Below the pieces are notes generated by a model, which made no database searches, was not told where the DNA came from, and saw only the letters and a list, made by a program, of their open reading frames with translations. From contig ONJI01000054.1 in assembly GCA_900318075.1 (NCBI GenBank), positions 1 through 34,185 of the forward strand: 34,185 nucleotides of DNA, given 5' to 3'. Source of the stretch: an uncultured Bacillota bacterium. GTDB lineage: Bacteria > Bacillota_I > Bacilli_A > RF39 > UBA660. The position numbers and the translations under genes are program-made. The first letter of the stretch is position 1, and every line of letters begins with the position of its first letter. Of the stretch, positions 11,423 to 33,792 are shown piece by piece.

Positions 11423-11442
11423 TGTAGAGAGTGGGGTGTATT

Positions 11443-13676: not shown

Positions 13677-13679
13677 TTT

Positions 13680-14549: not shown

Positions 14550-14595
14550 AAAATATTTTTAAAAGAAAAAAGAAAAGTGTAGAAGGGATTAAAAT

Positions 14596-15539: not shown

Positions 15540-15640
15540 AAATTGTACTGGTAATATAGGAATAATATTTAGGCGCTTTCTATATTATTGTGATTATCAA
15601 TATATTATTTGTTACAAAAAATAAAAATGGAGGTAGAAAA

Positions 15641-16807
15641 ATGAAGATTTCTGTTGCCGGTACAGGCTACGTTGGATTATCACTTGCTACATTGCTTGCT
15701 CAAGATAATGAAGTAGTAGCACTTGATGTAATACCTGAAAAGGTAGATATGATAAATAATAGGATTAGTCCTATTAAGGATGAATATATTGAAAAATATT
15801 TTAAGGAAAAAAAGTTAAATTTAAAAGCTACTTTAGATTATAGAGAAGCTTTTGATGGAGCTGAATTTGTAATTATTAGTACACCTACTAATTACGATGA
15901 AGAACACGGGTTTTTCGATACCAGTAGTGTTGAGGATATTATTGAGAAAGTTATTAGTATGGGGAATAATACAACAATGGTTGTAAAATCTACTATACCT
16001 GTAGGTTTTATAGAGAGCATTAAAGATAAATATAATATTGATAATATTATGTTTTCACCAGAGTTTTTAAGAGAGGGTAGAGCTTTATATGATAATTTAT
16101 ATCCTTCTAGAATAATAGTTGGAGATAAAGGAGAAAAAGCTCATCAGTTTGCTGAGTTATTATTAGATGGTTCTTTAAAGAAGGATGTTCCTGTTAAATT
16201 TATGGGGGCTACAGAAGCAGAGGCTGTTAAGTTATTTGCTAACACTTACTTAGCTTTAAGGGTTGCATATTTTAATGAGCTTGATACTTATGCTGAAATA
16301 AAAGAACTAAATACTAATGATATAATTGATGGTGTGTGTTTGGATCCAAGAATTGGAAATCATTATAACAATCCATCTTTTGGTTATGGTGGGTATTGTT
16401 TACCAAAGGATACCAAACAGTTACTTGCAAATTATAAAGATGTTCCTCAAAATTTGATAGAGGCTATTGTTAAATCAAATGATACTAGAAAAGATCATAT
16501 TGCTGACATGATAATTAAAAGGAATCCTGAGTGTGTAGGAGTATATAGATTAACTATGAAAAGTGGTTCTGATAATTTTAGAGCTAGTGCTATTCAGGGA
16601 GTTATTGATAGAATAAAATCTAATGGTATAAAGGTAGTAATATATGAGCCTACATTAAAAGAAAATATTTTTAATGACTGTGAAGTAATTAAAAGTTTTG
16701 CTGAATTCGAAGATATGACAGATGTTGTGCTTGTTAATAGGATGGATGAAAATGTTGAATTAATAAAGGAAAGGGTTTATACAAGAGATTTATTCTGCAG
16801 AGATTAA
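15641..16807 (+). CDS. ugd: UDP-glucose 6-dehydrogenase
   Basis: The 388-aa enzyme oxidises UDP-glucose to UDP-glucuronate with NAD. The N-terminal Rossmann motif is SVAGTGYVGLSLATLL. STPTNYDEEHGFFDTSSV, the KLFANTYLALRVAYFNELD helix and the catalytic-Cys segment FGYGGYCLPKDTKQL follow in order, and YEPTLKE lies in the UDP-binding C-domain. Length equals the short Ugd form, and the wording of the motifs is very close to enterobacterial Ugd. The start is the ATG after GGAGG (about 15629-15633); an in-frame ATG at 15590 lacks such a site. It supplies uronic acid to the capsule and is separated from the broken nitroreductase by about 100 nt. Confidence 0.94.
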   Translation: MKISVAGTGYVGLSLATLLAQDNEVVALDVIPEKVDMINNRISPIKDEYIEKYFKEKKLNLKATLDYREAFDGAEFVIISTPTNYDEEHGFFDTSSVEDIIEKVISMGNNTTMVVKSTIPVGFIESIKDKYNIDNIMFSPEFLREGRALYDNLYPSRIIVGDKGEKAHQFAELLLDGSLKKDVPVKFMGATEAEAVKLFANTYLALRVAYFNELDTYAEIKELNTNDIIDGVCLDPRIGNHYNNPSFGYGGYCLPKDTKQLLANYKDVPQNLIEAIVKSNDTRKDHIADMIIKRNPECVGVYRLTMKSGSDNFRASAIQGVIDRIKSNGIKVVIYEPTLKENIFNDCEVIKSFAEFEDMTDVVLVNRMDENVELIKERVYTRDLFCRD

Positions 16808-16878
16808 GTCTTTTACATCTTGTTATGGAAAATGTATTTTTAGGCGAAAATTATCGGATTTTTGTGGATATTACATAT

Positions 16879-16907
16879 TTGAAACTGTCATAATTTTATG
16901 ATAGGAT
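16879..16907 (+). promoter_or_regulatory. Weak candidate promoter upstream of vanZ-like gene
   Basis: TTGAAA (16879-16884) is followed after 17 nt by TAGGAT (4 of 6). Between it and the next gene lies a 10-bp all-A/T inverted repeat around 16938-16963. Both are weak signals in AT-rich DNA. Confidence 0.3.
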
Positions 16908-16984
16908 TATTTATGATAACTGCACAATCATATTTACTATTATTATTTAGTAATTAAATAATAAAGGAAAGGGGAATAGACTAT

Positions 16985-17470
16985 ATGAAAAATAAATTTT
17001 TATTAATTATGACTATTTTGTTCACTTTTATTTGGATGGGTGTAATATTCTCTTTTTCTAATGCATCTTCTGATGTTTCTAATAACGGAAGCAAAACTAT
17101 TATTAGATATATTGTAAAAAAGATTTATAAAGAAAAATCTGATTCTGATATAGAGAAAATTGTTGTTAAAATAAATAAGCCTTTTAGGAAATTCGCTCAT
17201 GCTTCTGTATATTTAGTACTTGCAAATTTCGTTAATAGTGTATTGTGTGTATTTATAAAAAATAAATTAAAATTATGTAATATGATATGTTTGATTGTTT
17301 GTTTTCTATATGCTTGTACTGATGAATGGCATCAGACATTTATTAGCCATAGGACAGGCCAAATTAGTGATGTTTTTATAGATACTTTTGGAGCTTTAAT
17401 AGGCTGTGTTATATTTGATTTTATATATAAGAAAGTTAAATCTAAAGATATACCAAAAAATAATATCTGA
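16985..17470 (+). CDS. VanZ-family membrane protein
   Basis: The 161-aa protein has an N-terminal membrane helix ending in FSFSNASS, then RKFAHASVYLVLA, two further helices and the C-terminal signature DEWHQTFISHRTGQISDVFIDTFGALIG. These are VanZ-like motifs. VanZ homologues include low-level teicoplanin resistance proteins, but most members have no known role; many sit near cell-envelope genes. A diverged C-terminal fragment of the same family lies at 28069-28218, on the other side of the recombinase array. GGAAAGGGG lies upstream of the start. Confidence 0.85.
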   Translation: MKNKFLLIMTILFTFIWMGVIFSFSNASSDVSNNGSKTIIRYIVKKIYKEKSDSDIEKIVVKINKPFRKFAHASVYLVLANFVNSVLCVFIKNKLKLCNMICLIVCFLYACTDEWHQTFISHRTGQISDVFIDTFGALIGCVIFDFIYKKVKSKDIPKNNI

Positions 17471-17677
17471 ATGCTGATTTTATTGTTTGAGTGTATAGTC
17501 TTTTTTGCCTGAACGCAGATATACAATAACTTTAAGCGAAATTATAAATATTTAGTGCAAATAATGATAACATTGGAACGTAGTTTCTGATGTTTTTTAA
17601 TATTTGAATATAATAAATTACCAATAACTGTTAAAAGTGGGGTTAATGATATAAAAGAATAATTATTTTGAGAATGA

Positions 17678-17706
17678 TTTAGTTTAAGCTTAATCAAAGT
17701 TATAAA
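17678..17706 (+). promoter_or_regulatory. Candidate promoter of the recombination module
   Basis: TTTAGT (17678-17683, 3 of 6) is 17 nt before TATAAA (17701-17706, 5 of 6). Transcription would start near 17713 and produce a leader of about 270 nt before the sigma-like gene. The upstream stretch 17471-17677 shows no gene. Confidence 0.4.
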
Positions 17707-17729
17707 TTATTTAGTTAGAGGTGATTATT

Positions 17730-17790
17730 ATATTGTTCTCATACTAGGGGTAGCTACATAGGGAGTATATAAAATGCATGAGGACAATAT
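17730..17790 (+). ncRNA. Long stem enclosing a G-rich conserved-looking core
   Basis: Arms 17730-17742 and 17778-17790 pair over 13 positions (one G-U). They enclose 35 nt with an inner ATACT/AGTAT stem and a G-rich loop that contains TAGCTACATAGGG. A related TAGCTACA...TAGGGG arrangement occurs in the second leader at about 18692-18717. It could be an aptamer-like or protein-binding domain; no known family was recognised. Confidence 0.5.
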
Positions 17791-17830
17791 ATCAATTCTT
17801 TTATACTTTGTTTTATTGATTGATTATTTC

Positions 17831-17846
17831 GACATATATATATGTC
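17831..17846. repeat. Perfect 16-nt palindrome
   Basis: GACATATATATATGTC reads the same on both strands. It could be an operator for a dimeric repressor or a small hairpin in the leader RNA. Its position between the basal stem and the terminator is the only support for a role. Confidence 0.4.
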
Positions 17847-17871
17847 AAATGGATTCTTGTACTCTTTTAAG

Positions 17872-17918
17872 CACCTATTATAAAGATCATTATGTGATTT
17901 TTATAATAGGTGTTTTTT
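17872..17918 (+). terminator. Leader terminator (possible attenuator)
   Basis: Two 18-nt arms (17872-17889 and 17895-17912) pair with a single mismatch or G-U, with a 5-nt loop, and are followed by six Ts (17913-17918). It lies 66 nt before the sigma-like gene and downstream of a promoter candidate, so it may act as an attenuator. It may instead simply end an upstream transcript. Confidence 0.75.
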
Positions 17919-17937
17919 ATTTGCCTTTAAATAGAGG

Positions 17938-17979
17938 TCCTCCTCGTTCGATTTGTAAAAAAACAAATTGAATGGAGGA
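17938..17979 (+). promoter_or_regulatory. Hairpin sequestering the ribosome binding site of the sigma-like gene
   Basis: TCCTCC (17938-17943) pairs with the Shine-Dalgarno GGAGGA (17974-17979). After a small internal loop, ten further positions (17947-17956 with 17963-17972, one G-U) pair around a six-A loop. The start codon at 17985 lies 5 nt after the stem. Translation should therefore be low unless the hairpin is opened. Confidence 0.7.
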
Positions 17980-17984
17980 TAGAA

Positions 17985-18455
17985 ATGAATAGACCTAAAA
18001 GAAGAAAGAGTAAGGATAATCCTTATACGTTAAAAATTATTAATAATACATATATTGTTACATTTATCGATAGTAATAATGTAAAAAGAGAAGTATCTTT
18101 ATCTGAGGATGTTTTTAATGCAATGGATAAGTTTGAACTTGAGGATATTTCTCAGATGCATAAAGCTGACAGACATATTGAAAGAAAGGAATTTTCTGAA
18201 ATTAATATAAATAAAAAAGCTTTTGTTAAGCCTTTATTATTAGAAGATGATTTTATTAACAATGCTAGTTTTAAAGAATTAAAAAATGCGATTGATAAGC
18301 TTCCGAGTATTCAAAAAAGAAGAATAAAAAAATATTATTTTGATGAGAAAAATGAATATGAAATAGCTGATGAAGAGAATACATCACAACAAGCAATTAA
18401 TAAGTCTTTAAACCTTGCTATTAAAAATTTGAAAAAATTTTTAAAGAAATTTTAA
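17985..18455 (+). CDS. Sigma-70 region 4-like DNA-binding protein
   Basis: The 156-aa protein has a basic N-terminus (NRPKRRKSKDNPYTLKI), an acidic middle and a C-terminal helix-turn-helix resembling sigma-factor region 4: LPSIQKRRIKKYYFDEKNEY, then IADEENTSQQAINKSLNLAI. There is no recognisable region 2, so it is unlikely to be a complete sigma factor. Proteins of this kind are common in Firmicutes integrative elements, near recombinase genes, and are thought to regulate element functions. Its ribosome site is masked by a hairpin and a terminator follows 31 nt after it. Target promoters are unknown. Confidence 0.75.
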   Translation: MNRPKRRKSKDNPYTLKIINNTYIVTFIDSNNVKREVSLSEDVFNAMDKFELEDISQMHKADRHIERKEFSEININKKAFVKPLLLEDDFINNASFKELKNAIDKLPSIQKRRIKKYYFDEKNEYEIADEENTSQQAINKSLNLAIKNLKKFLKKF

Positions 18456-18486
18456 AAAATGGGTTGTTATTTTGGCTCTGAGTGGA

Positions 18487-18532
18487 GAAATAAGTGAAGG
18501 GGTATTTTGCTCTTTCACTTATTTCATATTTT
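18487..18532 (+). terminator. Terminator after the sigma-like gene
   Basis: Arms 18487-18498 and 18514-18525 form a perfect 12-bp stem, followed by an AT-rich tail with five Ts. It separates the sigma-like gene from the toxin-recombinase operon, which therefore probably needs its own promoter. Confidence 0.75.
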
Positions 18533-18625
18533 TATGAGACAGTTCTTTGAAAATTTAATAATGTATTTATCAGATACGTTCCTACTTTTTTAAGCACGTT
18601 AGTAAACTCGCTTGACGAATAAAGT

Positions 18626-18655
18626 TTGACTATAAAATTAACTGGCAATTAATAT
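18626..18655 (+). promoter_or_regulatory. Candidate promoter of the mazF-recombinase operon
   Basis: TTGACT (18626-18631, 5 of 6) and TAATAT (18650-18655, 4 of 6) are 18 nt apart. Transcription would start near 18662, at the 5' side of the structured leader described next. The stretch 18533-18625 shows no gene or strong pairing. Confidence 0.45.
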
Positions 18656-18660
18656 GCGAT

Positions 18661-18814
18661 GATGATTAGTAGGGTTAAAGATACTCCTGCCTAGCTACAG
18701 ACTCAATCAATAGGGGCAGTTTTGAGAGAACCTCAAAAGGGTGAAATTCCCGTGATGTTGGTTAGCCACCATACAGTTTGATAAATAAAAATACATAATA
18801 CAAAGGAGAGGTAT
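18661..18814 (+). ncRNA. Structured leader RNA of the mazF-recombinase operon (unknown class)
   Basis: The 154 nt between the promoter candidate and the toxin gene can form several compact helices. CTGCC (about 18688) pairs with GGCAG (about 18715). TTTTGAG pairs with CTCAAAA (about 18720-18738) around a 5-nt loop. GGG-TGAAATT-CCC (about 18739-18751) has a seven-base loop with the U and A spacing of a T-loop, and GGTTAGCCACC can form a small hairpin. The GGTGAAATTCC style loop occurs in FMN and cobalamin riboswitches, but the rest of those consensus sequences is absent. A clear GGAGAGG ribosome site follows. This is a candidate new cis-regulatory RNA. Confidence 0.55.
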
Positions 18815-19168
18815 ATGAAAGTTTATAAAGGTGATATTTATTATGCTGATTTGGATCCTGTTAAGGGTTCTGAGCAAGGGGGAATAAGACCTATTATTGT
18901 TCTTCAAAATGATGTCGGAAATATTATGAGTTCTACTATTTTAGTCGCACCTCTTACTAAAAAATTTCATAATAAACCTAATCTACCAACACATATAACG
19001 ATAAATAATAAAAAATTAAAATACGAATCTATTGTCTTGCTTGAACAAGTAAAGGTTATTGATAAAGAAAGATTAAAACATGATTTTGTATGCAGAGTTT
19101 CTAAAAAGGTTATTAAGAAGATTGATAAGGCTTTATTAAAGTCTTTTGGAATAGGAGTGAAAAGATGA
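18815..19168 (+). CDS. MazF/PemK-family endoribonuclease toxin-like protein
   Basis: The 117-aa protein shows the MazF fold: KGDIYYADLDP at residues 5-15, EQGGIRPIIVLQND around 20-33 with the conserved Arg-Pro, and STILVAPLTKK around 40-50 with the conserved Ser/Thr and Pro. MazF-family proteins cleave RNA at short sequences. No antitoxin gene is visible upstream, where only the leader RNA lies. The next small gene overlaps its TGA by 4 nt and could be a partner, though it does not resemble MazE. In this context the protein may process transcripts of the recombinase operon instead of killing; that is speculation. Confidence 0.87.
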   Translation: MKVYKGDIYYADLDPVKGSEQGGIRPIIVLQNDVGNIMSSTILVAPLTKKFHNKPNLPTHITINNKKLKYESIVLLEQVKVIDKERLKHDFVCRVSKKVIKKIDKALLKSFGIGVKR

Positions 19169-19341
19169 AGGAATATGAAGTAAAGTTTACGATTAAACAG
19201 AAAATGTATTTAAAAGCTAAGAGTAAGAAAAAAGCTGAGGAAATGGTTAAGGATTTACTTTTGAATTTAAAATATTTTGAGTTAAGAGAAAAAGAAGTAA
19301 AAGTTCACGGTAAAAGGATTGATTGGAGGAAGAAGGTATAA
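19165..19341 (+). CDS. Small DpnD/PcfM-like protein
   Basis: This 58-aa gene starts at an ATG overlapping the TGA of mazF (ATGA) and ends at TAA 19339-19341, the last A of which is the first base of the next ATG. The protein begins MKEYEVKFTIKQKMYLKAKS, with KKKAEEMVKDLL following. A short beta strand pair followed by an Ala/Lys/Glu helix is characteristic of DpnD/PcfM-like proteins found in mobile elements. Tight overlaps on both sides show coupled translation. Family assignment rests on pattern only; a role as a MazF partner is possible but untested. Confidence 0.6.
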   Translation: MKEYEVKFTIKQKMYLKAKSKKKAEEMVKDLLLNLKYFELREKEVKVHGKRIDWRKKV

Positions 19342-19607
19342 TGGACATGCAGTTACTTAAAGATAAGATTAATAGAGCAAGTAGTATTGATATAAGAAAA
19401 GTAAATATTGATGATTTAAATGATTTTGATGATATTAAAATTGATGATAGTAAGACAAGTAGGGAGAGGATTATTGATTTCTTAATGGAAGTAAATAATC
19501 CTTATTTTTTTAAATGTAATGGTTATATTGTTAAGACTTCATTTAGTGATTATGGGATACTTGCTGAAGATTGTGTTTTAGATGCTTTTAAAAGTATTTA
19601 TAAATAG
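19341..19607 (+). CDS. DUF6870-like small protein
   Basis: From the ATG at 19341 the protein has 88 aa. It contains SSIDIRKVNIDDLNDFDDIK, SRERIIDFLMEVNNPYFFKC and VKTSFSDYG, an order I associate with DUF6870, whose members are encoded beside recombinases and mobilization genes in Firmicutes. Function is unknown. The start overlaps the preceding stop (TAATG) and follows GGAGGAAGAAGG; an in-frame TTG at 19323 is a poorer start. It is followed after 80 nt by the first large serine recombinase. Confidence 0.62.
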   Translation: MDMQLLKDKINRASSIDIRKVNIDDLNDFDDIKIDDSKTSRERIIDFLMEVNNPYFFKCNGYIVKTSFSDYGILAEDCVLDAFKSIYK

Positions 19608-19687
19608 TCAAATGTGTGTGCTTAAATTTTGCATGTTAGATTTTTTTATGTATTTTGAGTAGAATTTGTGCTGGGAGGAGGGTAAAA

Positions 19688-21334
19688 ATGTTTAGATGTG
19701 ATAATTGGAACTTAGGTGTTTATATAAGACTTAGTCAAGAGGATGGTGATGATAAGGATGAGAGTAATAGTATTACTAATCAGAGAAATTTGATTAATCA
19801 ATTTATCGAAAATGAAGAGAAGGTGCTTGTTATTGATTATTATATTGATGATGGTTATTCTGGTACGACTTTTGATAGGCCTGGTTTTAAAAGAATGATG
19901 GAGGATATAAAGAGCAAAAAAATAAACTGTGTTATTGTTAAAGATTTATCTAGATTTGGTAGAAATTATATTGAAGTAGGAAATTATCTAGAACAAATAT
20001 TTCCTTTATATGACTTAAGATTTATTTCTATTAATGATGAAGTTGATAATTATAAAAATCCTGAGTCAATTAGTAACATAATAGTGCCTTTTAAAAATTT
20101 GATGAATGATGAGTATGCGAGGGATATTTCCAATAAGGTAAAGGCATCCTTTTATGCTTTAAAAAAGAAAGGACTATTTATAGGCTCTATTGCTCCTTAT
20201 GGGTATGTTCGTGATCCAAATGATAAGCATAAGCTTATTGTTGATGAAAATGTAAGAGATGTAATTGAAACTATTTTTAAGCTATCGCTTGAAGGTAAAG
20301 GTGTAGGATATATTTCTGATTATTTAAATAAGAAGAATGTTTTAAGTCCTTTTATGTATAAAAAGAAAGTTTTAAAATCAATAAAAAAATATTGTAATTA
20401 TGATGAAGACCATGTTTTTTACTGGAATAGTAGTGGTGTAAAGTCAATACTTAAGAATAGAGCTTATTGTGGTGATATGGTTCAAAATAAAAGAAGAGTG
20501 ATTAGTTATAAAATTCATAAGTCTGTTAAGATTGATAAAGAAGATTATATTATAGTAGAAGATACGCATGAGGCTATTATTAGTAAGAATATTTTTGAAA
20601 AAGTACAAGAAGGATTATTTAGTAGGGCTAGTAGAGCATCGAAGACTGGCGAAAAACATATTTTAGCAGGTTATATTAAATGTGGTGATTGTGATAGATG
20701 TCTAACTAAGTATAAACAAGGAAAATGGATAACTGAGCCTGATAGAATAAATTATATGTTCCGGTGTTCGACTTATGCTAGAAGAGGCAAAACGTTATGT
20801 ACTCCACATAGAATTGATGAAGAAACTATGTATATAGCTGTTTTAAATGCTGTGAAGATGCAGATTGATCTGATTATAAACATGGAAAAAGCAATCGATA
20901 AAATGAAAAATAGTTGTGATAATGAGATTTTAAAAAGCAGTTTAGAGCAAAAGATGTCATCTCTAAAAAATGAATATGATGAGAAGATGAAGGCAAAGAG
21001 GCAAATATATAAAGATTGGAAAGATGAGATTATTTCAGAGGATGATTATTATCAATTTTCTAATATCTATGATAAGGAAATAAATCAAATTGTTTCTAAT
21101 ATAAATGATGTAAAAAAACAACAATGTGATATTTCTTTTAAGAATAATAACGATTGGATTTTAGAATTTAAAAAATATAAGAATATTAATACTTTAACAA
21201 GAGAAATGGTTATTGATTTAATCGATAATGTATATCTTTACGAAGGCAAAAGAATTGAAGTTAAGTTTAAATATGATGATGAGTATAAAAAGATTATAGA
21301 ACTTTTGGAGAGTACAACAAATGGGAAAAAATAG
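19688..21334 (+). CDS. Large serine recombinase 1
   Basis: The 548-aa protein has all large serine recombinase parts. The catalytic domain has Ser16 in VYIRLS, then the QRN segment and VKDLSRFGRNYIEVG. A recombinase domain spans about residues 165-300 (APYGYVRDP onward). The zinc ribbon has KCGDCDRC around residue 340 and later single Cys residues before CTPHRI. A coiled-coil region covers about 400-500. It cuts and rejoins DNA at paired att sites. The start is the ATG after GGGAGGAGGG; an upstream in-frame start at 19655 lacks such a site. It overlaps the next recombinase by 14 nt. Confidence 0.93.
   Translation: MFRCDNWNLGVYIRLSQEDGDDKDESNSITNQRNLINQFIENEEKVLVIDYYIDDGYSGTTFDRPGFKRMMEDIKSKKINCVIVKDLSRFGRNYIEVGNYLEQIFPLYDLRFISINDEVDNYKNPESISNIIVPFKNLMNDEYARDISNKVKASFYALKKKGLFIGSIAPYGYVRDPNDKHKLIVDENVRDVIETIFKLSLEGKGVGYISDYLNKKNVLSPFMYKKKVLKSIKKYCNYDEDHVFYWNSSGVKSILKNRAYCGDMVQNKRRVISYKIHKSVKIDKEDYIIVEDTHEAIISKNIFEKVQEGLFSRASRASKTGEKHILAGYIKCGDCDRCLTKYKQGKWITEPDRINYMFRCSTYARRGKTLCTPHRIDEETMYIAVLNAVKMQIDLIINMEKAIDKMKNSCDNEILKSSLEQKMSSLKNEYDEKMKAKRQIYKDWKDEIISEDDYYQFSNIYDKEINQIVSNINDVKKQQCDISFKNNNDWILEFKKYKNINTLTREMVIDLIDNVYLYEGKRIEVKFKYDDEYKKIIELLESTTNGKK
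19847..19908 (+). repeat. 62-nt segment identical to 26435-26496
   Basis: This part of recombinase 1, encoding DDGYSGTTFDRPGFKRMMED, is identical at the DNA level to the corresponding part of recombinase 5, although the genes differ widely elsewhere. It is a direct repeat about 6.6 kb apart that could support homologous recombination or reflect gene conversion. Confidence 0.75.
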
Positions 21335-22982
21335 ATATGGTTTGTCAAAAAATAATGCATGCAAGAAATATAAGGCTGGAATATATTTAAGAATTTCTAT
21401 TGATGATAATAATAATTCTGAAAGTAATAGTATTACTAATCAGAGAAGTTTTATTAATGATTGGATTAATAGGAGTGATGATGTTCAGTTTGTTTCAGAG
21501 TATGTAGACGATGGTTATACTGGTACAAATTTCAACAGGCCAGCATTTATGAAGATGATGAAAGATATAGCAGGCAATAAAATTGATTCTGTCATAGTAA
21601 AAGATGTTTCTAGAATTGGTAGAAATTATATTGAGGTTTCTAATTATATTGAAAATATTTTTCCTATGTATAACATTAGATTTATTTCTATCATGGATAA
21701 AATTGATTCTTTATCTAAGCCAAAGTCTATATCAAACATTTATTTTTCATTAAAAAACATTATGAATGAGCAGTATTCTAGAGATATATCAAAGAAAGCT
21801 TATTCATCTAAAATTGCTAGAAGAAAAATGGGATTATATGCTGGAAGTATTATTCCCTATGGTTATAAAGCTAGCGAGGAAGGTATTAAAAAATGGATTA
21901 TAGATGAAAATTCATCTAAAGTTGTGAAATATATTTTTAATGAATATAAAAATGGCTTAGGTTATACGAAAATTGCGTACAATTTAAATGAACGTGGAAT
22001 TTTATGTCCTTCTAGATACTTGGTTGAGGTATTAGGCTGTAAATATGGTAATTCATCTTGTGACAGTAATTCTGTTTCAAATAATTATTGGGGTATTAAA
22101 AATGTTAAAGAAATATTAAGTAATGAGGCTTATTGTGGTGATATGATACAAGGAAAATTTAGGAAGGCTAGTTATAAACAAAAAGAACTTATCAAACTTC
22201 CAAAAGATGAATGGATTGTTGTTAAGAATACTCATGAGCCTATCATTTCTCGTGAATTATTTGATGAGGTGCAAAGGATTATTAGTTCTAAAAGAGTTGA
22301 AACAAAGAGATATAATCCAAATATTTTCAAAGGATTATTAAGATGTGGTGATTGCCATAGAAGTATGATTAGAAAATATACAGGACAGAGAAAAAGCAAT
22401 CCTGAGATAGCTAATTATACATATTACTGTATGACATATTCTAGAATTAGTAGAAAACTTTGTACTTTGCACAGAACTAAGGGAGAAGATTTAGAAAAAA
22501 TTGTATTATCAGCTATTAATAATCAAATTAAACTTTACATAAATTTAAGAAATATCATTACAGATATTAAAAATAGTAATAATGATGTATTTAAAATAAA
22601 TGAAATAGAGAGAGAGATTAATTCTTATAAAATAAAACTTGAAAAATGTATGAAGAGAAAACTTAATCTTTATGAACAATATAAAACAGGTAGTCTTTCT
22701 TTGACTTATTACAATTATTTATATAATAAAAATATTGAAAATGTAAAAAATGTCAAGGATAAGTTAGATGATTTCTCTATAAAATACGAGAAAATAAAAA
22801 ATAATATTAATGATTTGTCCTGGATAGAGGAATTAACAGCAAATCCAATTATTACTAATTTGGATAACGATATTATGAAGAAGTTTATTAATTATATTTA
22901 TGTGTATGAAGATTATAGGGTGGAGATTTGTTTTAAATATGATGATAAATATAAGAAGATACTTGAGTATTTGAAAGGATGA
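21321..22982 (+). CDS. Large serine recombinase 2
   Basis: The 553-aa enzyme has its catalytic Ser26 in IYLRIS, after a longer N-terminal arm than recombinase 1. VKDVSRIGRNYIEVS replaces the usual DLSRFGR wording, so this copy is slightly diverged near the active site, but the key Arg and Ser are kept. The recombinase domain begins near IPYGYKAS. The zinc ribbon is RCGDCHRS with CMTY and CTLHRT. A charged coiled-coil occupies about residues 400-490. Its ATG lies inside recombinase 1, overlapping by 14 nt, so translation is probably coupled. Nothing suggests inactivation. Confidence 0.92.
   Translation: MGKNRYGLSKNNACKKYKAGIYLRISIDDNNNSESNSITNQRSFINDWINRSDDVQFVSEYVDDGYTGTNFNRPAFMKMMKDIAGNKIDSVIVKDVSRIGRNYIEVSNYIENIFPMYNIRFISIMDKIDSLSKPKSISNIYFSLKNIMNEQYSRDISKKAYSSKIARRKMGLYAGSIIPYGYKASEEGIKKWIIDENSSKVVKYIFNEYKNGLGYTKIAYNLNERGILCPSRYLVEVLGCKYGNSSCDSNSVSNNYWGIKNVKEILSNEAYCGDMIQGKFRKASYKQKELIKLPKDEWIVVKNTHEPIISRELFDEVQRIISSKRVETKRYNPNIFKGLLRCGDCHRSMIRKYTGQRKSNPEIANYTYYCMTYSRISRKLCTLHRTKGEDLEKIVLSAINNQIKLYINLRNIITDIKNSNNDVFKINEIEREINSYKIKLEKCMKRKLNLYEQYKTGSLSLTYYNYLYNKNIENVKNVKDKLDDFSIKYEKIKNNINDLSWIEELTANPIITNLDNDIMKKFINYIYVYEDYRVEICFKYDDKYKKILEYLKG
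21477..21508 (+). repeat. 32-nt segment identical to 24739-24770
   Basis: DNA encoding DDVQFVSEYVD is identical in recombinases 2 and 4. Together with their similar N-terminal arms it shows these two are closest partners in the catalytic domain. Confidence 0.7.
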
Positions 22983-22985
22983 TAA

Positions 22986-24590
22986 ATGATGGAAAATAAA
23001 CTTTGGAAAGTCGGTGGATATGTAAGATTATCTAGAAAAGAAGACGCTGTAAGTTTAAGTATTATTAATCAAAAAGAAATAATAAGACAGTATATATCTA
23101 AACATAATGATATGGTTTTATTTGATTATTATGTTGATGATGGTTATACTGGTACAAATTTTGATAGACCTGGATTTAAAAGAATGATGGAAGATATTAG
23201 AAAGAAAAATATAGATGTGATAGTTGTAAAGGATTTATCTAGATTTGGTAGAAATTATATTGAAGTAGGAAATTATTTGGAATATGATTTTAAGATTAAC
23301 AAAATTAGATTTATTTCTATTAATGATAGAATGGATAATTTATACAGCGATGCAACATCTACTGAGTTATTTTTTTCATTTAAAAATTTATTAAATGATG
23401 AGTACTGTAAAGATATATCAAAAAAGGTAAAGTCTATTTTCCATAGTCAAATGAAAGAAGGAAAATATCTCGGTGGAAATCCACCATTTGGATATCTAAG
23501 AGATGAAAATGATAAGCATAAATTAGTTATTGATAATAATGTTTCGTGGATTATAAAGAAAATTTTTAATATGGCTTTAACTGGTAAGACAAATAGAGAA
23601 ATAGCATTAGAATTAAATAAAGATGAAATAATAACTCCATTAAAATATCGTAATCCTAATACTAAATATGGTTTATATTGGACTAACAAATGTGTTGGTT
23701 CTATACTTAGGAATCAAGTTTACTGTGGTGATATGGTTCAAGGAAAAGTTAAAAATGCTAGTTATAAGCTAAAAAAAAGAATTCCAATTCCGAAAGAAGA
23801 ATGGGTTATTGTTGAAAATACTCATGAGGCTATTATTAGTAAAGATATTTATGAAAAAATCAGAAAACAAAGAATGCCTTATGTTAAAACTGGTGGGTAT
23901 GAGTCTAAGAAAGAAGTTAATTTGTTAAATAAGTATTTAAGATGTCATGACTGTAATCGAAAGATGCATATTTACACAAAGAGAAAGACTGATGATTCAA
24001 TTGGGAGTTATTGTAAATTAGTGTGTAAAACGTACTTTACAATATCTAAAGATAGATGTTTGCCTCATTATATAGATACTGATGAAATTTACGATTTACT
24101 TATTAGTGATTTTAAGAAGCAGAAAACTATTTTGGATATTTTAAAAAATGTTAAGTTTAGTGAAAGTTATAAAAATTTGTATCTAAAATTAAATAAAAGT
24201 ATTAATAAGGTTCAAAGTAATGTAGATGAAATATATATCGAGAACAATAGTCTTTATGATGACTTTATTAATGAAATGATTACTGCTGATGATTATAATC
24301 ATTTTCATTCTTATTATGTAGATAATATAAAAGTGCAAAATGCTCATTTAAATAATCTTAAAAACAAATATGATTCAGTTAAAAGAATAATTGACGATAC
24401 TAATTTTTGGTATGACAAAATTAGTAAATTAATTGAAATCGATTATTTGAATGATGAGATACTTAAGACTTATATAGATATAATATATGTAAATGATGAT
24501 GGTAGTATCAATGTAAAGTATTTGTTTGACTATTTAATTGACGAAATATCTTTATGTAGTATGGATGGTGAAACTGTTGGGAAAAGTTAG
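22986..24590 (+). CDS. Large serine recombinase 3
   Basis: The 534-aa enzyme has Ser16 in GYVRLS, the same short N-terminal arm as recombinase 1. It has DDGYTGTNFDRPGFKRMMED and VKDLSRFGRNYIEVG, a recombinase domain from about PPFGYLRDE, a zinc ribbon with RCHDCNRK and later CKTY and CLPHY, and a shorter coiled-coil region. FSFKNLLNDEYCKDIS contains an extra Cys where relatives have ARDIS. It starts 3 nt after recombinase 2; a second ATG at 22989 is equally possible. All expected catalytic residues are present. Confidence 0.92.
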   Translation: MMENKLWKVGGYVRLSRKEDAVSLSIINQKEIIRQYISKHNDMVLFDYYVDDGYTGTNFDRPGFKRMMEDIRKKNIDVIVVKDLSRFGRNYIEVGNYLEYDFKINKIRFISINDRMDNLYSDATSTELFFSFKNLLNDEYCKDISKKVKSIFHSQMKEGKYLGGNPPFGYLRDENDKHKLVIDNNVSWIIKKIFNMALTGKTNREIALELNKDEIITPLKYRNPNTKYGLYWTNKCVGSILRNQVYCGDMVQGKVKNASYKLKKRIPIPKEEWVIVENTHEAIISKDIYEKIRKQRMPYVKTGGYESKKEVNLLNKYLRCHDCNRKMHIYTKRKTDDSIGSYCKLVCKTYFTISKDRCLPHYIDTDEIYDLLISDFKKQKTILDILKNVKFSESYKNLYLKLNKSINKVQSNVDEIYIENNSLYDDFINEMITADDYNHFHSYYVDNIKVQNAHLNNLKNKYDSVKRIIDDTNFWYDKISKLIEIDYLNDEILKTYIDIIYVNDDGSINVKYLFDYLIDEISLCSMDGETVGKS

Positions 24591-26262
24591 ATATAGTGAG
24601 GCTAAAAGTAGTAATGACATTACTTATAAGGCTGGAATATATTTAAGATTATCAAAAATGATTAATGATGAAATGTATGAAGAGAGTTTAAGTATATATT
24701 CTCAAAGATTGATATTAATGGATTGGATTAATAAACATGATGATGTTCAGTTTGTTTCAGAGTATGTAGATGATGGTTATTCTGGTACTACTTTTGATAG
24801 ACCTGGTTTTAAAAGAATGGTGGAGGATATTAAAAACAATAAAATAAATTGTGTTATTGTTAAAGATTTATCTAGATTTGGTAGAAATTATATTCGTGTA
24901 AATGATTACATTTTGAACGTTTTTCCTTTATATAATGTTAGATTTGTTTCTATTATCGATAATGTAGATTCTATTTGTAATCCAAATTCAATTAATAATC
25001 CACTTTTTTCTCTTATAAATTTAATTAATGATGAGTATTCTAGAGATATTTCAGATAAACTTAAAAAAATTTGTAAACATAAAATGGAAAAAGGGTATGC
25101 AATATCTTCTGGTGGAGTTTATGGATATATAAGAAAACATAATAAATATTTTGTCGATATAGAGGCTTCCCTGATTGTGAAATATATTTTTAGTGAATAT
25201 GAAAAAGGAAAAACTTTTTCGGAAATTGCTTCATTACTTAATAAGAAAAAAATATATTCACCACTTAAGTATAAAATTTTCAAATTATATCCAGGTAAGT
25301 ATGATTTTAATTCTTATAAATATGATGTAAGAAAAGCAGTTTGGACTGACGATGTAATATCTAATATTTTAAAGGCAAGAGTTTATTGTGGAGATTTAGT
25401 TCAAGGAAAAAGAAGATATCAAAGTCATAAAATTCATAAAGTAATTAACAACCCAGAATCTGAATGGGTTATTGTTGAAAATACTCATGAGCCCATTATA
25501 GATAGAGAACAGTTTTTTAGAGTTCAGGAGTTAATAGAAAAAAGAAGATTAGATGAATTTGATAGTGGTAAGTATAATTTGTTTTACCGTATGATCAAAT
25601 GTGGTAGATGTGGTAAATATCTTATAAAAAAGGTAAGACGTACTAAGGAATGCTCTAAAATTTTTTACTGTTGCCAAACATATAATAGATATGGTATTTC
25701 TTATTGTTCTTCACATTTAATGGATGGAAATATATTATATGATTTTGTTTTAAAATCGATTAATAATAGAATCAGTCAGATTAAAAAGTTAAAAAAGAGT
25801 ATTGCTTCTATAAAAGGTAAGTTTTCTTTTATAGATGTTAATAGACTAAGAGAAAAAATAGAATTGATAAATAAAGAGATTTTGAATTTTAGAAATCAGA
25901 AACTTAAAATTTATCGTAAATATAAAAATGGTTCAATATCTAAAGATGAATATATTAATCAAGAAAGAAATATAGAAGATAGAATCAAAGAAATTAGTAA
26001 AGTTTCAAGCAAAATTATTTTTATTATTGATTTTATGGAAACTATAAAAAATAATTCTGGTTGGTTAGATTACTTTTCAAAATTTAGAATAAACAGGAAA
26101 CTTAAGCGAAAAATTTTAGAGGATATTATAGGAAACATTGTACTAACTACTGATTCTAAATTAATTATTTATTTTAAGTATGAAAATGAATTTAATGAAT
26201 TAAATAGTCTAATAAATAAAATAGATTCAAACAATATTATGGAGGTAATAAATGAAGTATGA
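24577..26262 (+). CDS. Large serine recombinase 4
   Basis: From the TTG at 24577 the protein has 561 aa and its catalytic Ser (IYLRLS) is residue 26, exactly as in recombinase 2. The beginning, MGKVRYSEAK, aligns with MGKNRYGLSK of recombinase 2, and the overlap with the upstream gene is 14 nt in both cases. This decides the start for me; an ATG at 24565 and a farther in-frame start at 24538 are alternatives. DLSRFGRNYIRVN, the domain from about GVYGYIRKH, the zinc ribbon KCGRCGKY with CCQTY and CSSH, and a coiled coil are intact. Confidence 0.9.
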   Translation: MGKVRYSEAKSSNDITYKAGIYLRLSKMINDEMYEESLSIYSQRLILMDWINKHDDVQFVSEYVDDGYSGTTFDRPGFKRMVEDIKNNKINCVIVKDLSRFGRNYIRVNDYILNVFPLYNVRFVSIIDNVDSICNPNSINNPLFSLINLINDEYSRDISDKLKKICKHKMEKGYAISSGGVYGYIRKHNKYFVDIEASLIVKYIFSEYEKGKTFSEIASLLNKKKIYSPLKYKIFKLYPGKYDFNSYKYDVRKAVWTDDVISNILKARVYCGDLVQGKRRYQSHKIHKVINNPESEWVIVENTHEPIIDREQFFRVQELIEKRRLDEFDSGKYNLFYRMIKCGRCGKYLIKKVRRTKECSKIFYCCQTYNRYGISYCSSHLMDGNILYDFVLKSINNRISQIKKLKKSIASIKGKFSFIDVNRLREKIELINKEILNFRNQKLKIYRKYKNGSISKDEYINQERNIEDRIKEISKVSSKIIFIIDFMETIKNNSGWLDYFSKFRINRKLKRKILEDIIGNIVLTTDSKLIIYFKYENEFNELNSLINKIDSNNIMEVINEV

Positions 26263-27916
26263 TTTTCAAATATCTAAACATAGTTATGTTAAGAAATATA
26301 AGGCTGCTTTATATATAAGATTATCTGCCGAAGATATGAAAAGAGGTGAGAGTAATAGTGTTACTAATCAAAGGACAATACTAAATGATTATATTGCTAA
26401 GCATGATGATTTAGTTATATATTCTGAATATGTAGATGATGGTTATTCTGGTACGACTTTTGATAGGCCTGGTTTTAAAAGAATGATGGAGGATATTGAA
26501 AATAAAAAAGTTGATACTATTATAGTTAAGGATTTATCTAGATTTGGTAGAAACTATATTGAGGTTGGCAGTTATTTAGAATATAAATTTCCTGAGTTAG
26601 ACATAAGATTTATTTCTATATTAGATGATATTGATAGTGTTGAAAAACCTGATTCAATTAATAGTATGATTGTACCTTTTAAAAATTTGATGAATGAAGA
26701 ATATGCAAGAGATATTTCAAATAAGATTAAATCAGCAATATATGCAAGAAGAAATAAAGGAGATTATATTTGTTCATCTGTTCCTTATGGGTATATTAGA
26801 GATAGTGAAAATAAGTATAAGCTTGTAATAGATAGTGATGCTGCTAAAGTGGTGAAATATATTTTTGATTTAGCTTTAAATCATACCACATCGACCTTTA
26901 TTGCAAAAAAATTAAATGATTTAGGTATTTATACTCCTTCTCAATATAAAGTAAAAGTACTTGGGAAAAAATATAGGAATTTATTTGTAAATGAATTAAA
27001 CATTGATGAGAAAAAATGGACTAGTGGAACTATTGCAGGTATACTTCAGAATAGAGTTTACTGTGGGGATGTTATACAGGGAAAATTTGCCACAATGAGT
27101 TTTAAGAATCATCATATAAAAAGAATTAATGAAGATAAATGGATTATTCATGAGAATGTTCATGAATCTATTATTAGTAGAGATGTGTTTGATAGAGTTA
27201 ACTTATTATATTTTTCGAAGATTGTAAAAGCTAATTCAAAAGGCTCTTTTGCTTTATTTGCAGGATTTGTTAGATGTTCAGATTGTTATAGAGGATTAAA
27301 TAGAGTAGGCTATAGATATAGTGGTAAAAAGAAAGCCACATCTCATTATAGTTATGTTTGTGGAACATACTTACAAATATCTAAAACTAAATGCACACCA
27401 CACAAAATAAGAGAAAATGAACTTAAAGAAATAGTTTTAAAGGCTATTAGAAATCACGTAAGACTTGTTATTAAGTTAGATACAATAGTTAAAAATAAAA
27501 CTATAGAAAAAAAACAACATTATGATAAGGATATTATCGAAAATAATATATCAATTTTAACTGATGAACTAAATCAAAATCTAATATTTAAAAGGAATTT
27601 ATATATGGATTGGAAAAATAAAATTATTTCAGAAGATGATTACAAAGAATTTAGTAGTAATTATGAAAGAAAAATAAAAGAAATTAATGAGAAAATAGAT
27701 AACTGTAAAAGTGAATTATCTAATATTAATAACACTTATAAGTTTGATTGGATTAGTACTGTAAAAAAATATAAAAATATAAAAGATATAAATCGTGATG
27801 TTTTATTTGATTTAATTAATGAGATAATTATATATGAGGATAAAAGAGTAGATATTAAATTTTTATATGATGATATATATAATGAAACATTATCTTATTT
27901 TAGTAATAAAGGGTGA
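26252..27916 (+). CDS. Large serine recombinase 5
   Basis: The 554-aa enzyme begins at an ATG after GGAGG and overlaps recombinase 4 by 11 nt. Ser25 lies in LYIRLS, preceded by a long arm ending KKYKAA as in recombinases 2 and 4. However, IVPFKNLMNEEYARDISNKI and the 62-nt identical DNA tract match recombinase 1, so this copy looks mosaic. The domain from about VPYGYIRDS, the zinc ribbon RCSDCYRG with CGTY and CTPHK, and the coiled coil are complete. It is the last gene of the array; about 150 nt later the VanZ fragment begins. Confidence 0.92.
   Translation: MKYDFQISKHSYVKKYKAALYIRLSAEDMKRGESNSVTNQRTILNDYIAKHDDLVIYSEYVDDGYSGTTFDRPGFKRMMEDIENKKVDTIIVKDLSRFGRNYIEVGSYLEYKFPELDIRFISILDDIDSVEKPDSINSMIVPFKNLMNEEYARDISNKIKSAIYARRNKGDYICSSVPYGYIRDSENKYKLVIDSDAAKVVKYIFDLALNHTTSTFIAKKLNDLGIYTPSQYKVKVLGKKYRNLFVNELNIDEKKWTSGTIAGILQNRVYCGDVIQGKFATMSFKNHHIKRINEDKWIIHENVHESIISRDVFDRVNLLYFSKIVKANSKGSFALFAGFVRCSDCYRGLNRVGYRYSGKKKATSHYSYVCGTYLQISKTKCTPHKIRENELKEIVLKAIRNHVRLVIKLDTIVKNKTIEKKQHYDKDIIENNISILTDELNQNLIFKRNLYMDWKNKIISEDDYKEFSSNYERKIKEINEKIDNCKSELSNINNTYKFDWISTVKKYKNIKDINRDVLFDLINEIIIYEDKRVDIKFLYDDIYNETLSYFSNKG
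26435..26496 (+). repeat. 62-nt segment identical to 19847-19908
   Basis: This is the second copy of the identical tract shared by recombinases 1 and 5; recombinases 3 and 4 have similar but not identical versions. Confidence 0.75.
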
Positions 27917-28068
27917 ATATAAATTTCATCTTTTTATTTTGTAGCAAATATATGATTATGTTAAAAAGCAGGTATTCACTTAGTATGATGGTATTTTTTT
28001 GACTTTTTTTAAAAATAGTTAAAAAGTATTATATCTCATATTATATAAGGCCTTTTTGAAGGTTTGAG
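27917..28068. other. Gene-free junction between recombinase 5 and the VanZ fragment
   Basis: I see no gene. Around 28033-28070 a weak nested inverted repeat (ATCTCA with TGAGAT, inside it CCTT with AAGG) occurs, followed directly by the VanZ-like fragment. This is where an element end or attachment site would be expected, but no direct repeat with the left side of the array was recognised. Confidence 0.4.
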
Positions 28069-28218
28069 ATGAGAAAAGTGTTGAAGAGGAAAGTGTGCAT
28101 TGGAAGAAGTGGGCAATTTATAGATGTTTTGATCGATACATTTGGGGCTATTATTGGATGTGTTATATTTAATATAATATATAAAAGAATTAAATATAAA
28201 AAAAACGTAAATAGTTAA
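28069..28218 (+). pseudogene. VanZ-family C-terminal fragment
   Basis: A 49-codon frame encodes GRSGQFIDVLIDTFGAIIGC and a basic tail, clearly the last third of a VanZ-like protein. It aligns with residues around HRTGQISDVFIDTFGALIGC of the intact gene at 16985-17470, but the DNA differs at many positions, so this is a paralogue or a second allele and not a recent copy. The N-terminal two thirds are missing. The stop codon lies inside the following terminator stem. Its position directly beyond the recombinases suggests an old insertion or deletion junction. Confidence 0.72.
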
Positions 28219-28246
28219 CTCAGGGATTAAACTATTTACGTTTTTT
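28201..28246. terminator. Bidirectional terminator
   Basis: A perfect stem of at least 16 bp (28201-28216 with 28230-28245) has As on the left and Ts on the right, so it can serve both the rightward VanZ-fragment side and the leftward nuclease gene, whose stop codon it touches. Confidence 0.85.
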
Positions 28247-29192
28247 ATTTTAAATTTTCAATTTCTTTTAGTGAAAGACCTGTTACTTTTGAAATTATAT
28301 TAATATCAATATTTTCTTTAAGTAAATTTTTAACAGTTTCAATTTTTTGTTCAAGTTTACCTTCTTTAATACCTTCTTTAATGCCTTGCTCTCTACCTTC
28401 TTTTATGGCATTTTCTTTTTCGGTGTAATTAGCTAGATCTTCGAGCATCTGTGCTTCCCAATTAGTGAGTATTTTTTTATTTCTATTCAATTTAATCACC
28501 TCTTCCATAATTTGGTTTATATGGTTTTCATCATCATACATTTGACATAATACTTCATAGGCTTCAGAATAAGTTTTTGATGATAGAAAGACTAACCATA
28601 AATCAGCTTTGTTTAATTTAGCTTTATTATAATATAACTTTCTGTAATATGCAACGTTTTTTATCATAACTTGAAAGTTTTTAGCTTTTATATGTTTTCC
28701 TTCTAGTTTTAAAATGTCTTCGCCAAATTTATTATCTTTTTCATTAGTGTTTATGTTTAATTGAAGTAGTTTCATTTTTTTAAGATTGTCTGTTTTTTCA
28801 CCTTTTTTGAGTAAAGAGTTTCCTGTTAATTTTGCCATATATATAAGATTTCTATACATTATATCATCATATTTTTTACCATTAGCTTCTACGTTGGCGA
28901 TAATATTATCATTTAAATACACTAATATATCGACTCTATATCCTCTACCTGTTTTGTTTTCTATTGGAAACTCTTCACTGTCAAATGTAATAGATACTTC
29001 GTTTGGATTGAGGTTTAAATTGGTTTCTAGTATTAAAAATTCTTTTAAATAATCGGGATTTCTACCGAAGAAGGCTTTGAATGGTCCGTCATGTGTTAGT
29101 GTGACTATTGTCCTTCCAGTTTTTTTAAATATGTTCTGATTTTTAATTTCGGTATCTAGATTTTTGTAATACTTAGTTTTTTCTTCTAACAT
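28245..29192 (-). CDS. Rpn/PD-(D/E)XK nuclease-family transposase-like protein
   Basis: The 315-aa protein has HDGPFKAFFGRNPDYLKEFL near residues 34-53 and the nuclease core GYRVDILVYLNDNIIANVEA (about 84-103). The C-terminal tail repeats EGREQGIKEGIKEGKLEQK. It then ends in a short helical segment (SKVTGLSLKEIENL). This is the layout of PD-(D/E)XK family transposase/Rpn proteins, DNA endonucleases that can promote RecA-independent recombination. In place of the usual E-x-Q motif it has E-x-N, which may affect catalysis. GAAAGGTG precedes the start on the minus strand. It is the only intact minus-strand gene, so it was probably acquired separately. Confidence 0.87.
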   Translation of the reverse strand: MLEEKTKYYKNLDTEIKNQNIFKKTGRTIVTLTHDGPFKAFFGRNPDYLKEFLILETNLNLNPNEVSITFDSEEFPIENKTGRGYRVDILVYLNDNIIANVEANGKKYDDIMYRNLIYMAKLTGNSLLKKGEKTDNLKKMKLLQLNINTNEKDNKFGEDILKLEGKHIKAKNFQVMIKNVAYYRKLYYNKAKLNKADLWLVFLSSKTYSEAYEVLCQMYDDENHINQIMEEVIKLNRNKKILTNWEAQMLEDLANYTEKENAIKEGREQGIKEGIKEGKLEQKIETVKNLLKENIDINIISKVTGLSLKEIENLK

Positions 29193-29656: not shown

Positions 29657-30184
29657 ATGAAAAAGTTTTTTGTAACATTTTTAGTTGTGAATGTATTACT
29701 AGGTGTACTAGGTGTTAGTGCAATGAGTGAAAGTAAATTACTTGAGAAGTTAAGTGCTAAATACAATATCAATGGAACTACTTATCAATTAAGAGCTGAC
29801 GATAAAGTTTTAGCTGAAAGATATCTAAACACTAACGAAGTATCTTCTAAGGATGCAGATTACATTGCTTCAAAGATTGATGAAGCTATTGAGATTATGA
29901 AAAAATCAGGTGAAAAAGATTTTACTAATTTTTCAAAATTACCTGCTTCTTTAAAGAAAGATTTAAAAAAATTAGTTCAAGACGTTGCTAGTAATACTTC
30001 AGTTAAAGCTACAACAGCTAAAGGTGTTGTTATTATCTACAACCAAGATGGTACAGTTTTTGCTGAAATCACTGGTTTAGTTAAGAATACTGGTTCTAAT
30101 TTAAATATTATTGTTCCAGCAGCAATTTTAGTTGTAGCATTAGGCGCAGTAGTACTAGTTAAAAATGTAAAAGCTAATGCATAA
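29657..30184 (+). CDS. Secreted, membrane-anchored surface protein, probable sortase substrate
   Basis: The 175-aa protein starts after CTAGGAGGG. Residues 1-23 form a signal peptide (KKFFVTFLVVNVLLGVLGV then SAMS). The middle is Lys/Asp/Ser-rich and helical. The C-terminus has VKNTG, a hydrophobic helix (NIIVPAAILVVALGAVVLV) and a short basic tail KNVKANA. That tripartite end resembles a cell-wall sorting signal, with VKNTG in place of LPxTG. The next gene is a sortase and overlaps by 8 nt, supporting a dedicated enzyme-substrate pair. I do not recognise the central domain. Confidence 0.7.
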   Translation: MKKFFVTFLVVNVLLGVLGVSAMSESKLLEKLSAKYNINGTTYQLRADDKVLAERYLNTNEVSSKDADYIASKIDEAIEIMKKSGEKDFTNFSKLPASLKKDLKKLVQDVASNTSVKATTAKGVVIIYNQDGTVFAEITGLVKNTGSNLNIIVPAAILVVALGAVVLVKNVKANA

Positions 30185-30803
30185 AAAATTAAAATTCAAT
30201 GGAAAGGCATTTGTCACATATGTGGCAATTTCCTTTTTATTTGTCTCTATTTTCATTTTAATAGTATTTTTTGGCCTTAATAATAAGATAGTTAGATATG
30301 TGGGTTTAATAAATACTATTGCAATTGAAAAAAAAGATAACGAAAAAGTTTTAAAATTTGATAGTGTAAAGAAAAGGTTAACTAGTTATCCAGCGTATGG
30401 ATCAAAATATGCAAATATTAAAATAGAGGCCATAGATTTAACTTTACCAGTTTATTATGGCGATAATTTAGAAATATTAAGTCATGGTATAGGACATTAT
30501 GCAGGATCTTATTTTCCTGGTGAAGGGGGAACTGTAATACTTGCAGGTCATAACAATTCTGGCTATTTTGATAAAATATTAGAGTTAAAAAAAGATGATA
30601 CAGTCATTATAGATGCGGATTATGGAACTTTTAAATATAAAGTTGATAGAACAGACATAGTAAATGAAAATAATTTGGAAGCTTTTCCTATTCAAAATGA
30701 TAGGGAAATGCTTATACTTTACACATGCTATCCTTTGGGAATTGGACATAAAACAGAAAGATTTCTCGTATATGCTTATAGAGCAGGTGATATGAATGAA
30801 TAG
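30177..30803 (+). CDS. Sortase (class D-like)
   Basis: The 208-aa protein has an N-terminal membrane anchor (about residues 12-36) and a sortase barrel. The catalytic His is in TVILAGHNNSG (about residue 124), Cys in LILYTCYPLG (about 182) and Arg in TERFLVY (about 197). Short length and the TCYP wording fit class D or a related housekeeping-like class. Sortases cut a C-terminal signal and join the protein to the wall or to another acceptor. It overlaps the putative substrate gene upstream by 8 nt and the membrane protein downstream by 8 nt. Confidence 0.9.
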   Translation: MHKKLKFNGKAFVTYVAISFLFVSIFILIVFFGLNNKIVRYVGLINTIAIEKKDNEKVLKFDSVKKRLTSYPAYGSKYANIKIEAIDLTLPVYYGDNLEILSHGIGHYAGSYFPGEGGTVILAGHNNSGYFDKILELKKDDTVIIDADYGTFKYKVDRTDIVNENNLEAFPIQNDREMLILYTCYPLGIGHKTERFLVYAYRAGDMNE

Positions 30804-31620
30804 AGTTAAAATAATCTTACGTGGTATTCTTGGATTTGTTTGTTCTATACTATTGTTTGGGCTTGTTATTCTTACAATTTTTAAACTTACGATATATAAT
30901 AAAAATTATGTGTTAAATAAAATGGAAAGTGAAAACTATTATACAAAAGTTTATGAAGAAATAAATAATGATATGAAAAACAGTTTACTTTCTTCAGGTT
31001 TAGATGAAACTGTTCTAGAAGGTTTAGTTACTAAAAATGTTGTAAAAAAAGAAACTAAAAATTTAGTAGGATCTATATATACTGGTTCTAAATTTAAGGC
31101 AGATACAGATTCTTTTAAAGAAAAGTTAAATGCAAATATTGATAATTATTTAAATGAAAAAAATATTCAGGTAACCGATAAAAAATCTTTAGAAACTTTT
31201 ATTTCAAATGTTGTAGATGTCTATAAAAAAGAAATTAGTTTATATGGATATTTGGAAGATTATGTTAGTAAGTTTGTAAAGATAGGAAATTATTTAGATA
31301 TGGCAATAGTGATTATGACTTTATTATTGCTTATCTTTATACTTATATTGCGTTACGGGCTTCATAGAAGATACTCTGGTGTTATATTTATGTCTGCTGG
31401 TTTGATGCTTTTGTATTTCAAATCATATATATATGAGCAGATAGATATCAAAAATATTTTAATTATATCTGACAGTTTTTCTAGTTTACTTAGAAGAATA
31501 TTATTAGACATAAACGATAAATTTTTATTTGTATTATTTATTTTCATTCTTGTAGGTATATTACTTAATTTAAAAAATGCTTTTGCAAAAAAAAGAAAAA
31601 AAGTGAAAAAAATATCTTAA
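30796..31620 (+). CDS. Membrane protein of unknown function
   Basis: The 274-aa protein has an N-terminal membrane helix (about residues 8-32), an extracytoplasmic domain of about 130 residues rich in Lys, Asn and Glu, then three membrane helices (about 172-188, 194-208 and 246-262) and a very basic tail. No enzymatic motif was recognised. It overlaps the sortase gene by 8 nt and is followed after 18 nt by the Wzz-kinase gene, so it links the sortase genes and capsule control genes into one transcript. It might help sortase function or polysaccharide anchoring; this is only positional inference. Confidence 0.7.
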   Translation: MNRVKIILRGILGFVCSILLFGLVILTIFKLTIYNKNYVLNKMESENYYTKVYEEINNDMKNSLLSSGLDETVLEGLVTKNVVKKETKNLVGSIYTGSKFKADTDSFKEKLNANIDNYLNEKNIQVTDKKSLETFISNVVDVYKKEISLYGYLEDYVSKFVKIGNYLDMAIVIMTLLLLIFILILRYGLHRRYSGVIFMSAGLMLLYFKSYIYEQIDIKNILIISDSFSSLLRRILLDINDKFLFVLFIFILVGILLNLKNAFAKKRKKVKKIS

Positions 31621-31638
31621 TTATAAGGAGTTGGGTAT

Positions 31639-33704: not shown

Positions 33705-33713
33705 GGTTTTTAA
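33679..33713 (+). terminator. Terminator of the capsule-regulator operon
   Basis: AAAATCCTAG (33679-33688) pairs with CTAGGGTTTT (33701-33710, one G-U) and is followed by a T-rich tail. It includes the last codons of cpsB. Confidence 0.75.
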
Positions 33714-33736
33714 ATATTATGATATTTTTGTATACA

Positions 33737-33765: not shown

Positions 33766-33792
33766 GGAATTGCTAGGAAAGAGGGTTAAGCT

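Follow-up and report, generated by a model that had tools for sequence, protein, structure and literature searches.

Five adjacent and intact large serine recombinase genes at the end of a predicted integrative element in a vanZ gene of an uncultured Bacillota bacterium

The DNA analyzed in this study (the window; 34,185 nucleotides) is one entire contig of a 1.14-Mb genome in 71 contigs. The open reading frame (ORF) listing revealed five large serine recombinase (LSR) genes, R1–R5, that are adjacent, head to tail and all on the forward strand (19688–27916). Their products are the sole matches to the Recombinase domain (PF07508) in the source genome. The array and the features around it are as follows:

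16985..17470, + strand: vanZ-like target gene (VanZ Pfam; joined to the downstream flank in array-less relatives)
17351..17363, + strand: left att junction, at the vanZ codons for Arg-Thr-Gly-Gln (placed by aligning codons with those of three empty sites)
17985..18455, + strand: sigma-region-4-like regulator (weak Pfam Sigma70_r4_2 match under the cut-off; PHROG sigma factors; homologues in sister elements)
18675..18755, + strand: pemK RNA, a cis-regulatory motif ahead of mazF (Rfam RF02913, 57.3 bits)
18815..19168, + strand: MazF/PemK-family toxin gene (Pfam PF02452, 3e-29)
19166..19342, + strand: 58-aa ORF, assigned by reading the sequence alone
19341..19607, + strand: DUF6870 gene, immediately 5' of R1 (Pfam PF21757, 5e-20)
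19688..21334, + strand: R1, LSR of type A (ATG with a good upstream ribosome-binding site; mechanically listed ORF start, 19655)
21321..22982, + strand: R2, LSR of type B (ORF, Pfam, residue table, tree)
22986..24590, + strand: R3, LSR of type A with a deviating C-terminal part (ORF, Pfam, residue table, trees)
24565..26262, + strand: R4, LSR of type B (three candidate starts: 24538, 24565 and 24577)
26252..27916, + strand: R5, LSR of type B (ORF, Pfam, residue table, tree)
28105..28212, + strand: right att junction and displaced host vanZ 3' end (vanZ homology from 28105, continuing into the host as in genome G006)
28245..29192, - strand: PDDEXK_2 nuclease-family gene of the host flank (Pfam PF12784; also found after vanZ in G006)

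Pfam identified Resolvase, Recombinase and zinc-ribbon domains in each of R1–R5; the zinc ribbon of R3 scores under the Pfam curated cut-off, and its four zinc cysteines are nonetheless there. In the alignment and residue table, Arg8, the catalytic Ser10, Asp67, Arg68, Arg71 and the four zinc cysteines are intact in all five proteins, which by their domains and catalytic Ser/Arg are thus LSRs. The first-pass annotation, which had described five consecutive intact LSRs, was therefore confirmed by ORFs, Pfam and residues, as was the tight gene spacing that it reported: R1/R2 and R4/R5 overlap by 14 and 11 nt, respectively, R2 and R3 are separated by 3 nt, and R3 and R4 overlap by 14–53 nt, depending on the choice of the R4 start. 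Because R1–R5 share only 35–43% protein identity with one another, they can be regarded neither as a recent copy-number expansion nor as an assembly collapse. This divergence, together with the synteny of both flanks with relatives, led us to reject the assembly artifact that the annotation had itself raised. It had also argued that keeping all copies intact implies selection, and five divergent intact enzymes do imply past selection on each of them.

The LSR genes make up ~8.2 kb of an integrative element of ~10.75 kb and lie at its right end. This element is inserted in the vanZ gene of a capsule locus. Homology of the right vanZ copy begins at position 28105, at Arg-x-Gly-Gln codons, and the left copy is continuous across 17351; the element therefore extends from about 17351 to about 28105. 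DNA comparison showed that the vanZ 3' end is duplicated in the window (17357–17446 versus 28111–28200, 79%), and the border repeats are direct and flank the element. In the left vanZ copy the 5' part is nearest to that of genome G003 (78%) and the 3' part reaches only 68%, a comparison that rests on ~90 nt; such a split is as expected if the element had brought a substitute 3' end. The 5' part of vanZ is from the host, and the 3' end from ~17351 is probably supplied by the element. DNA searches of 44 genomes of the genus, a presence/absence comparison that the first-pass annotation had suggested, identified three (G006, G035 and G003) in which the dehydrogenase gene and vanZ run directly on to the downstream operon and the array is absent. 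With these empty sites, we are highly confident of the element and its borders. The vanZ junctions are the one att pair found in the window, and their palindromy is no higher than background. No relaxase or conjugation genes were found by Pfam scans among the ORFs listed in 17351–28105, and the element is thus not classified as an integrative conjugative element.

Capsule or exopolysaccharide clusters flank the element on both sides (2972–17470 and 29657–34116). The upstream cluster encodes a sugar transferase, glycosyltransferases, a flippase, a UDP-sugar dehydrogenase and VanZ, and a second capsule-type operon with a sortase, a Wzz-kinase and CpsB follows the PDDEXK_2 gene. Numerous short and partial DNA matches to the latter gene occur throughout the genus, the pattern of a repeated family.

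Relatives of the array were drawn from IMG/VR, phages, plasmids and family genomes. The nearest in the tree are two-LSR elements of other genera of the same family (L070–L082), in which the order sigma-like gene, MazF, DUF6870, LSR, LSR is found in L076–L080 and L082 (L079 lacks a sigma-like match). They share this gene order and an apparent catalytic-domain conversion with the window element; they differ in having two active LSRs, often together with a catalytic-domain-only protein that lacks the serine, and in lying at the rbgA 5' end where checked. In L076, L077, L078 and L080 the conserved block stops inside the rbgA 5' end, right after the second LSR. The LSR genes are thus at the element end adjoining the interrupted target gene in the window and the rbgA pair elements alike. 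This element class is real and recurrent, and the version in the window has five LSRs.

Arrays of two, three and four LSRs are frequent among the matches listed from these sources. In a Vescimonas plasmid, DUF6870 precedes four LSRs, of which the first three are full and the last is damaged. In the longest array, from IMG/VR (L285/L344, L344:1254-14324, IMGVR_UViG_3300010280_000498), a DUF6870 gene precedes eight LSR frames that lie back to back, and three of these frames, as read, are without canonical catalytic residues. Another kind of IMG/VR array (L323/L326) has six LSRs in what look like two triplets ~360 nt apart, and one of the six LSRs is without catalytic residues as read. Both arrays resemble that of the window in their back-to-back LSRs and, for the array of eight, in the DUF6870 gene just upstream, and differ from it in being built from the triplet lineage and in containing members without catalytic residues. 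Among the matches listed, the window holds the sole array of five all-active-looking members in one unbroken run. The first-pass annotation had considered five coupled copies to be outside known biology, which does not hold given the published triplets (PMC4701971), the frequent pairs, triplets and quartets, and the single arrays of six and eight found here. It had proposed a search for at least four adjacent LSRs; the quartets and the arrays of six and eight are of this size, and DUF6870 is a neighbor of the quartets and the array of eight. Because tandem LSR arrays are widespread and reach up to eight, five is extreme, not unprecedented, and belongs to a known but mechanistically unexplained kind. 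A motif search next to the other arrays found none with vanZ as the target. Separately, a three-LSR array of another genus (L083:7504-12497) has a vanZ-like gene directly after it.

Multi-serine-recombinase integration modules are already known; the present one is distinguished by five all-intact members, an independent lineage and a small vanZ element. Triplets of serine integrases have been described in streptococcal integrative conjugative elements, where they are adjacent and co-oriented and occupy the end of the element that adjoins the disrupted target gene (Ambroset et al., 2016; PMC4701971). Each member has Resolvase and Recombinase domains and most have a zinc ribbon, and serial duplication was presumed (PMC4701971). 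Like these triplets, the LSRs of the window are adjacent, co-oriented and located at the element end next to the target, and thus form a multi-serine-integrase module. Unlike them, the array has five genes of a separate lineage outside the three position clades, its target is vanZ, and conjugation genes were not found. The gin element of Bacillus cereus is a non-phage element with three serine recombinases, one of them apart from the other two, that is inserted in a host gene; this gene is restored in sporulation, for which GirC and GirX are enough (PMC5595907). It shares with the window element the multiple LSRs and the insertion in a host gene, and its recombinases, in contrast to R1–R5, are not all adjacent. 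The named single-gene relatives also differ from the window: TnpX is the best relative with a solved structure and TndX is the named plasmid relative, and both types have one gene per element. In SCC elements, two or three LSRs per element, the Ccr recombinases, can cooperate (discussed in PMC5595907). R1–R5 do not belong to this group, given that their scores are at most 121 bits against NCBIfam equivalog cut-offs of 700–900 for CcrA/B/C and that the target gene is another one.

In the LSR tree, triplet and quartet members group into clades by array position, and the streptococcal triplet members join the same position clades. The five LSRs of the window instead make up a separate clade (95/94), close to the two-LSR lineage and outside the three position-specific clades; multi-LSR arrays therefore seem to have had more than one origin. 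Within the five, R1 groups with R3 (99/85) and R5 with the R2+R4 pair (98/94), giving the order A-B-A-B-B. In outline, the five genes very probably arose through duplication of an A-B recombinase pair. The detailed A-B-A-B-B history is tentative because a tree of the C-terminal parts moves R3 to a single-LSR lineage with modest support (81/84).

Further analyses revealed identical DNA runs, all inside the catalytic domain, between R1 and R5 (62 nt) and between R1 and each of R3 and R4 (45 nt). Among the ten R1–R5 pairs compared with synonymous-codon shuffles, five had p < 0.01, and these three runs exceeded nearly all shuffles (p 0.001–0.002). Longer runs, up to 122 nt, occur in related pairs: the catalytic domains of adjacent LSRs in L094, L099, L100 and L102, otherwise 40–48% identical, share runs of 61–122 nt. 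In L094–L102 the catalytic domains of partners cluster together, and the C-terminal parts cluster by position with strong support. These runs and trees suggest gene conversion confined to the catalytic domain, which would predict such a pattern, although they could simply mark where sequence similarity persists. The DNA-binding halves are far more diverged than the catalytic domains.

Partners without a functional active site are also conserved in related arrays. The second gene of typical quartets encodes a full-length LSR, confirmed by Pfam as a family member, that lacks the catalytic Ser and a complete zinc ribbon in all 12 rows of its clade. The Ser is replaced by Leu, Val, Ile or Thr (L108, L110, L111, L115, L116, L117, L125, L131 and L133), and this clade apparently consists of pseudo-recombinase subunits. 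Catalytic-domain-only proteins of ~155 aa accompany two-LSR modules, most of them with Ala or Gly for Ser10. Such proteins were seen upstream of the pairs in L076, L077, L078, L080, L094, L097, L099, L100 and L101. The conserved dead partners and the homogenized catalytic interface fit cooperating, probably hetero-oligomeric, recombinases, with redundancy as another possibility.

We propose that the array serves as integration/excision module for the ~10.75-kb vanZ-inserted element between the two capsule clusters and that the members of the array act together, which we consider the likeliest of the explanations weighed here and reasonably probable. Following duplication of the A-B pair to A-B-A-B-B, the encoded proteins would cooperate through one catalytic and synapsis interface in common, and their differing DNA-binding halves would recognize different half-sites of attP and attB. 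Integration and excision would then proceed via mixed complexes, whose direction may be set by DUF6870 or another small gene. The conserved module order of sigma-like gene, pemK RNA-mazF, DUF6870 and LSRs is in favor of this explanation. The heteromeric action that the first-pass annotation had offered as an example fits the shared catalytic tracts, the diverged DNA-binding halves and the dead members elsewhere; true hetero-oligomers may be formed, a more tentative claim than joint action itself.

The strongest competing explanation is that one or two of the five move the element and the rest are redundant, are decoys or serve other reactions, having been retained for a while after duplication. 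In the gin element, GirC is the only one of three LSRs needed for the gerE rearrangement, and GirC and GirX suffice for excision with the other two dispensable (PMC5595907), which counts against joint action. Single LSRs of the subfamily, such as TndX-like and Tn6104-type relatives, likewise mobilize elements unaided. We nevertheless consider this explanation less likely than joint action, given that every catalytic and zinc residue is kept in all five proteins despite their low mutual identity and that the position-specific clades of triplets and quartets show long-lived specialized roles. It is less probable still that the members recognize different attB sites and form a combinatorial set with which the element can use several targets. 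The far greater divergence of the DNA-binding halves would suit such retargeting, as would the difference in target between related elements, the window element using vanZ and the pair elements rbgA, but the single att pair of the window and the insertion of pair elements of several genera at rbgA speak against it.

Two further explanations have very little to recommend them. Several single-LSR elements could have inserted next to one another, each leaving its recombinase gene in place, as the array of six, with its two spaced triplets, might suggest; the overlapping and co-oriented frames of the window, its single DUF6870 gene ahead of the first LSR only, and a search for att-like repeats between the R1–R5 genes, which found none, make this accretion highly improbable. 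The position of the array between two capsule gene clusters also raises the idea of phase-variation invertases acting on capsule promoters. This is the least credible of all, because the border repeats are direct and lie around the element, the nearby inverted repeats are only terminator-like or AT-rich and delimit no invertible segment, and the capsule locus is present without the array in relatives.

Characterized serine integrases are homo-tetramers on two sites. Tandem LSR arrays in general might, as a tentative generalization from these comparisons, be multi-subunit recombinases with converted catalytic domains, half-site-specialized DNA-binding halves and often dedicated dead subunits, of which the window would hold an all-active version. 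Should the paralogues of such arrays, two to eight in number, act in mixed complexes, the subunits could divide half-site recognition among themselves, which would alter the view of how target choice evolves and provide new DNA-integration tools. The ~10.75-kb element, whose borders are known, offers a compact test case: it has a single target gene and five enzymes that look active.

The DUF6870 gene holds the same position in pairs, triplets, quartets and the array of eight, and a role as directionality factor is a guess. As a known directionality factor it was rejected, given that its AlphaFold model (mean pLDDT 81) has no fold match and that DUF6870 also occurs without LSRs; it was named in no paper found by literature search. 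In L231, L232, L233 and L234, several DUF6870 genes lie ~2 kb apart with accessory genes between them and no intact LSRs, upstream of rbgA in several cases, which suggests a cassette-like island.
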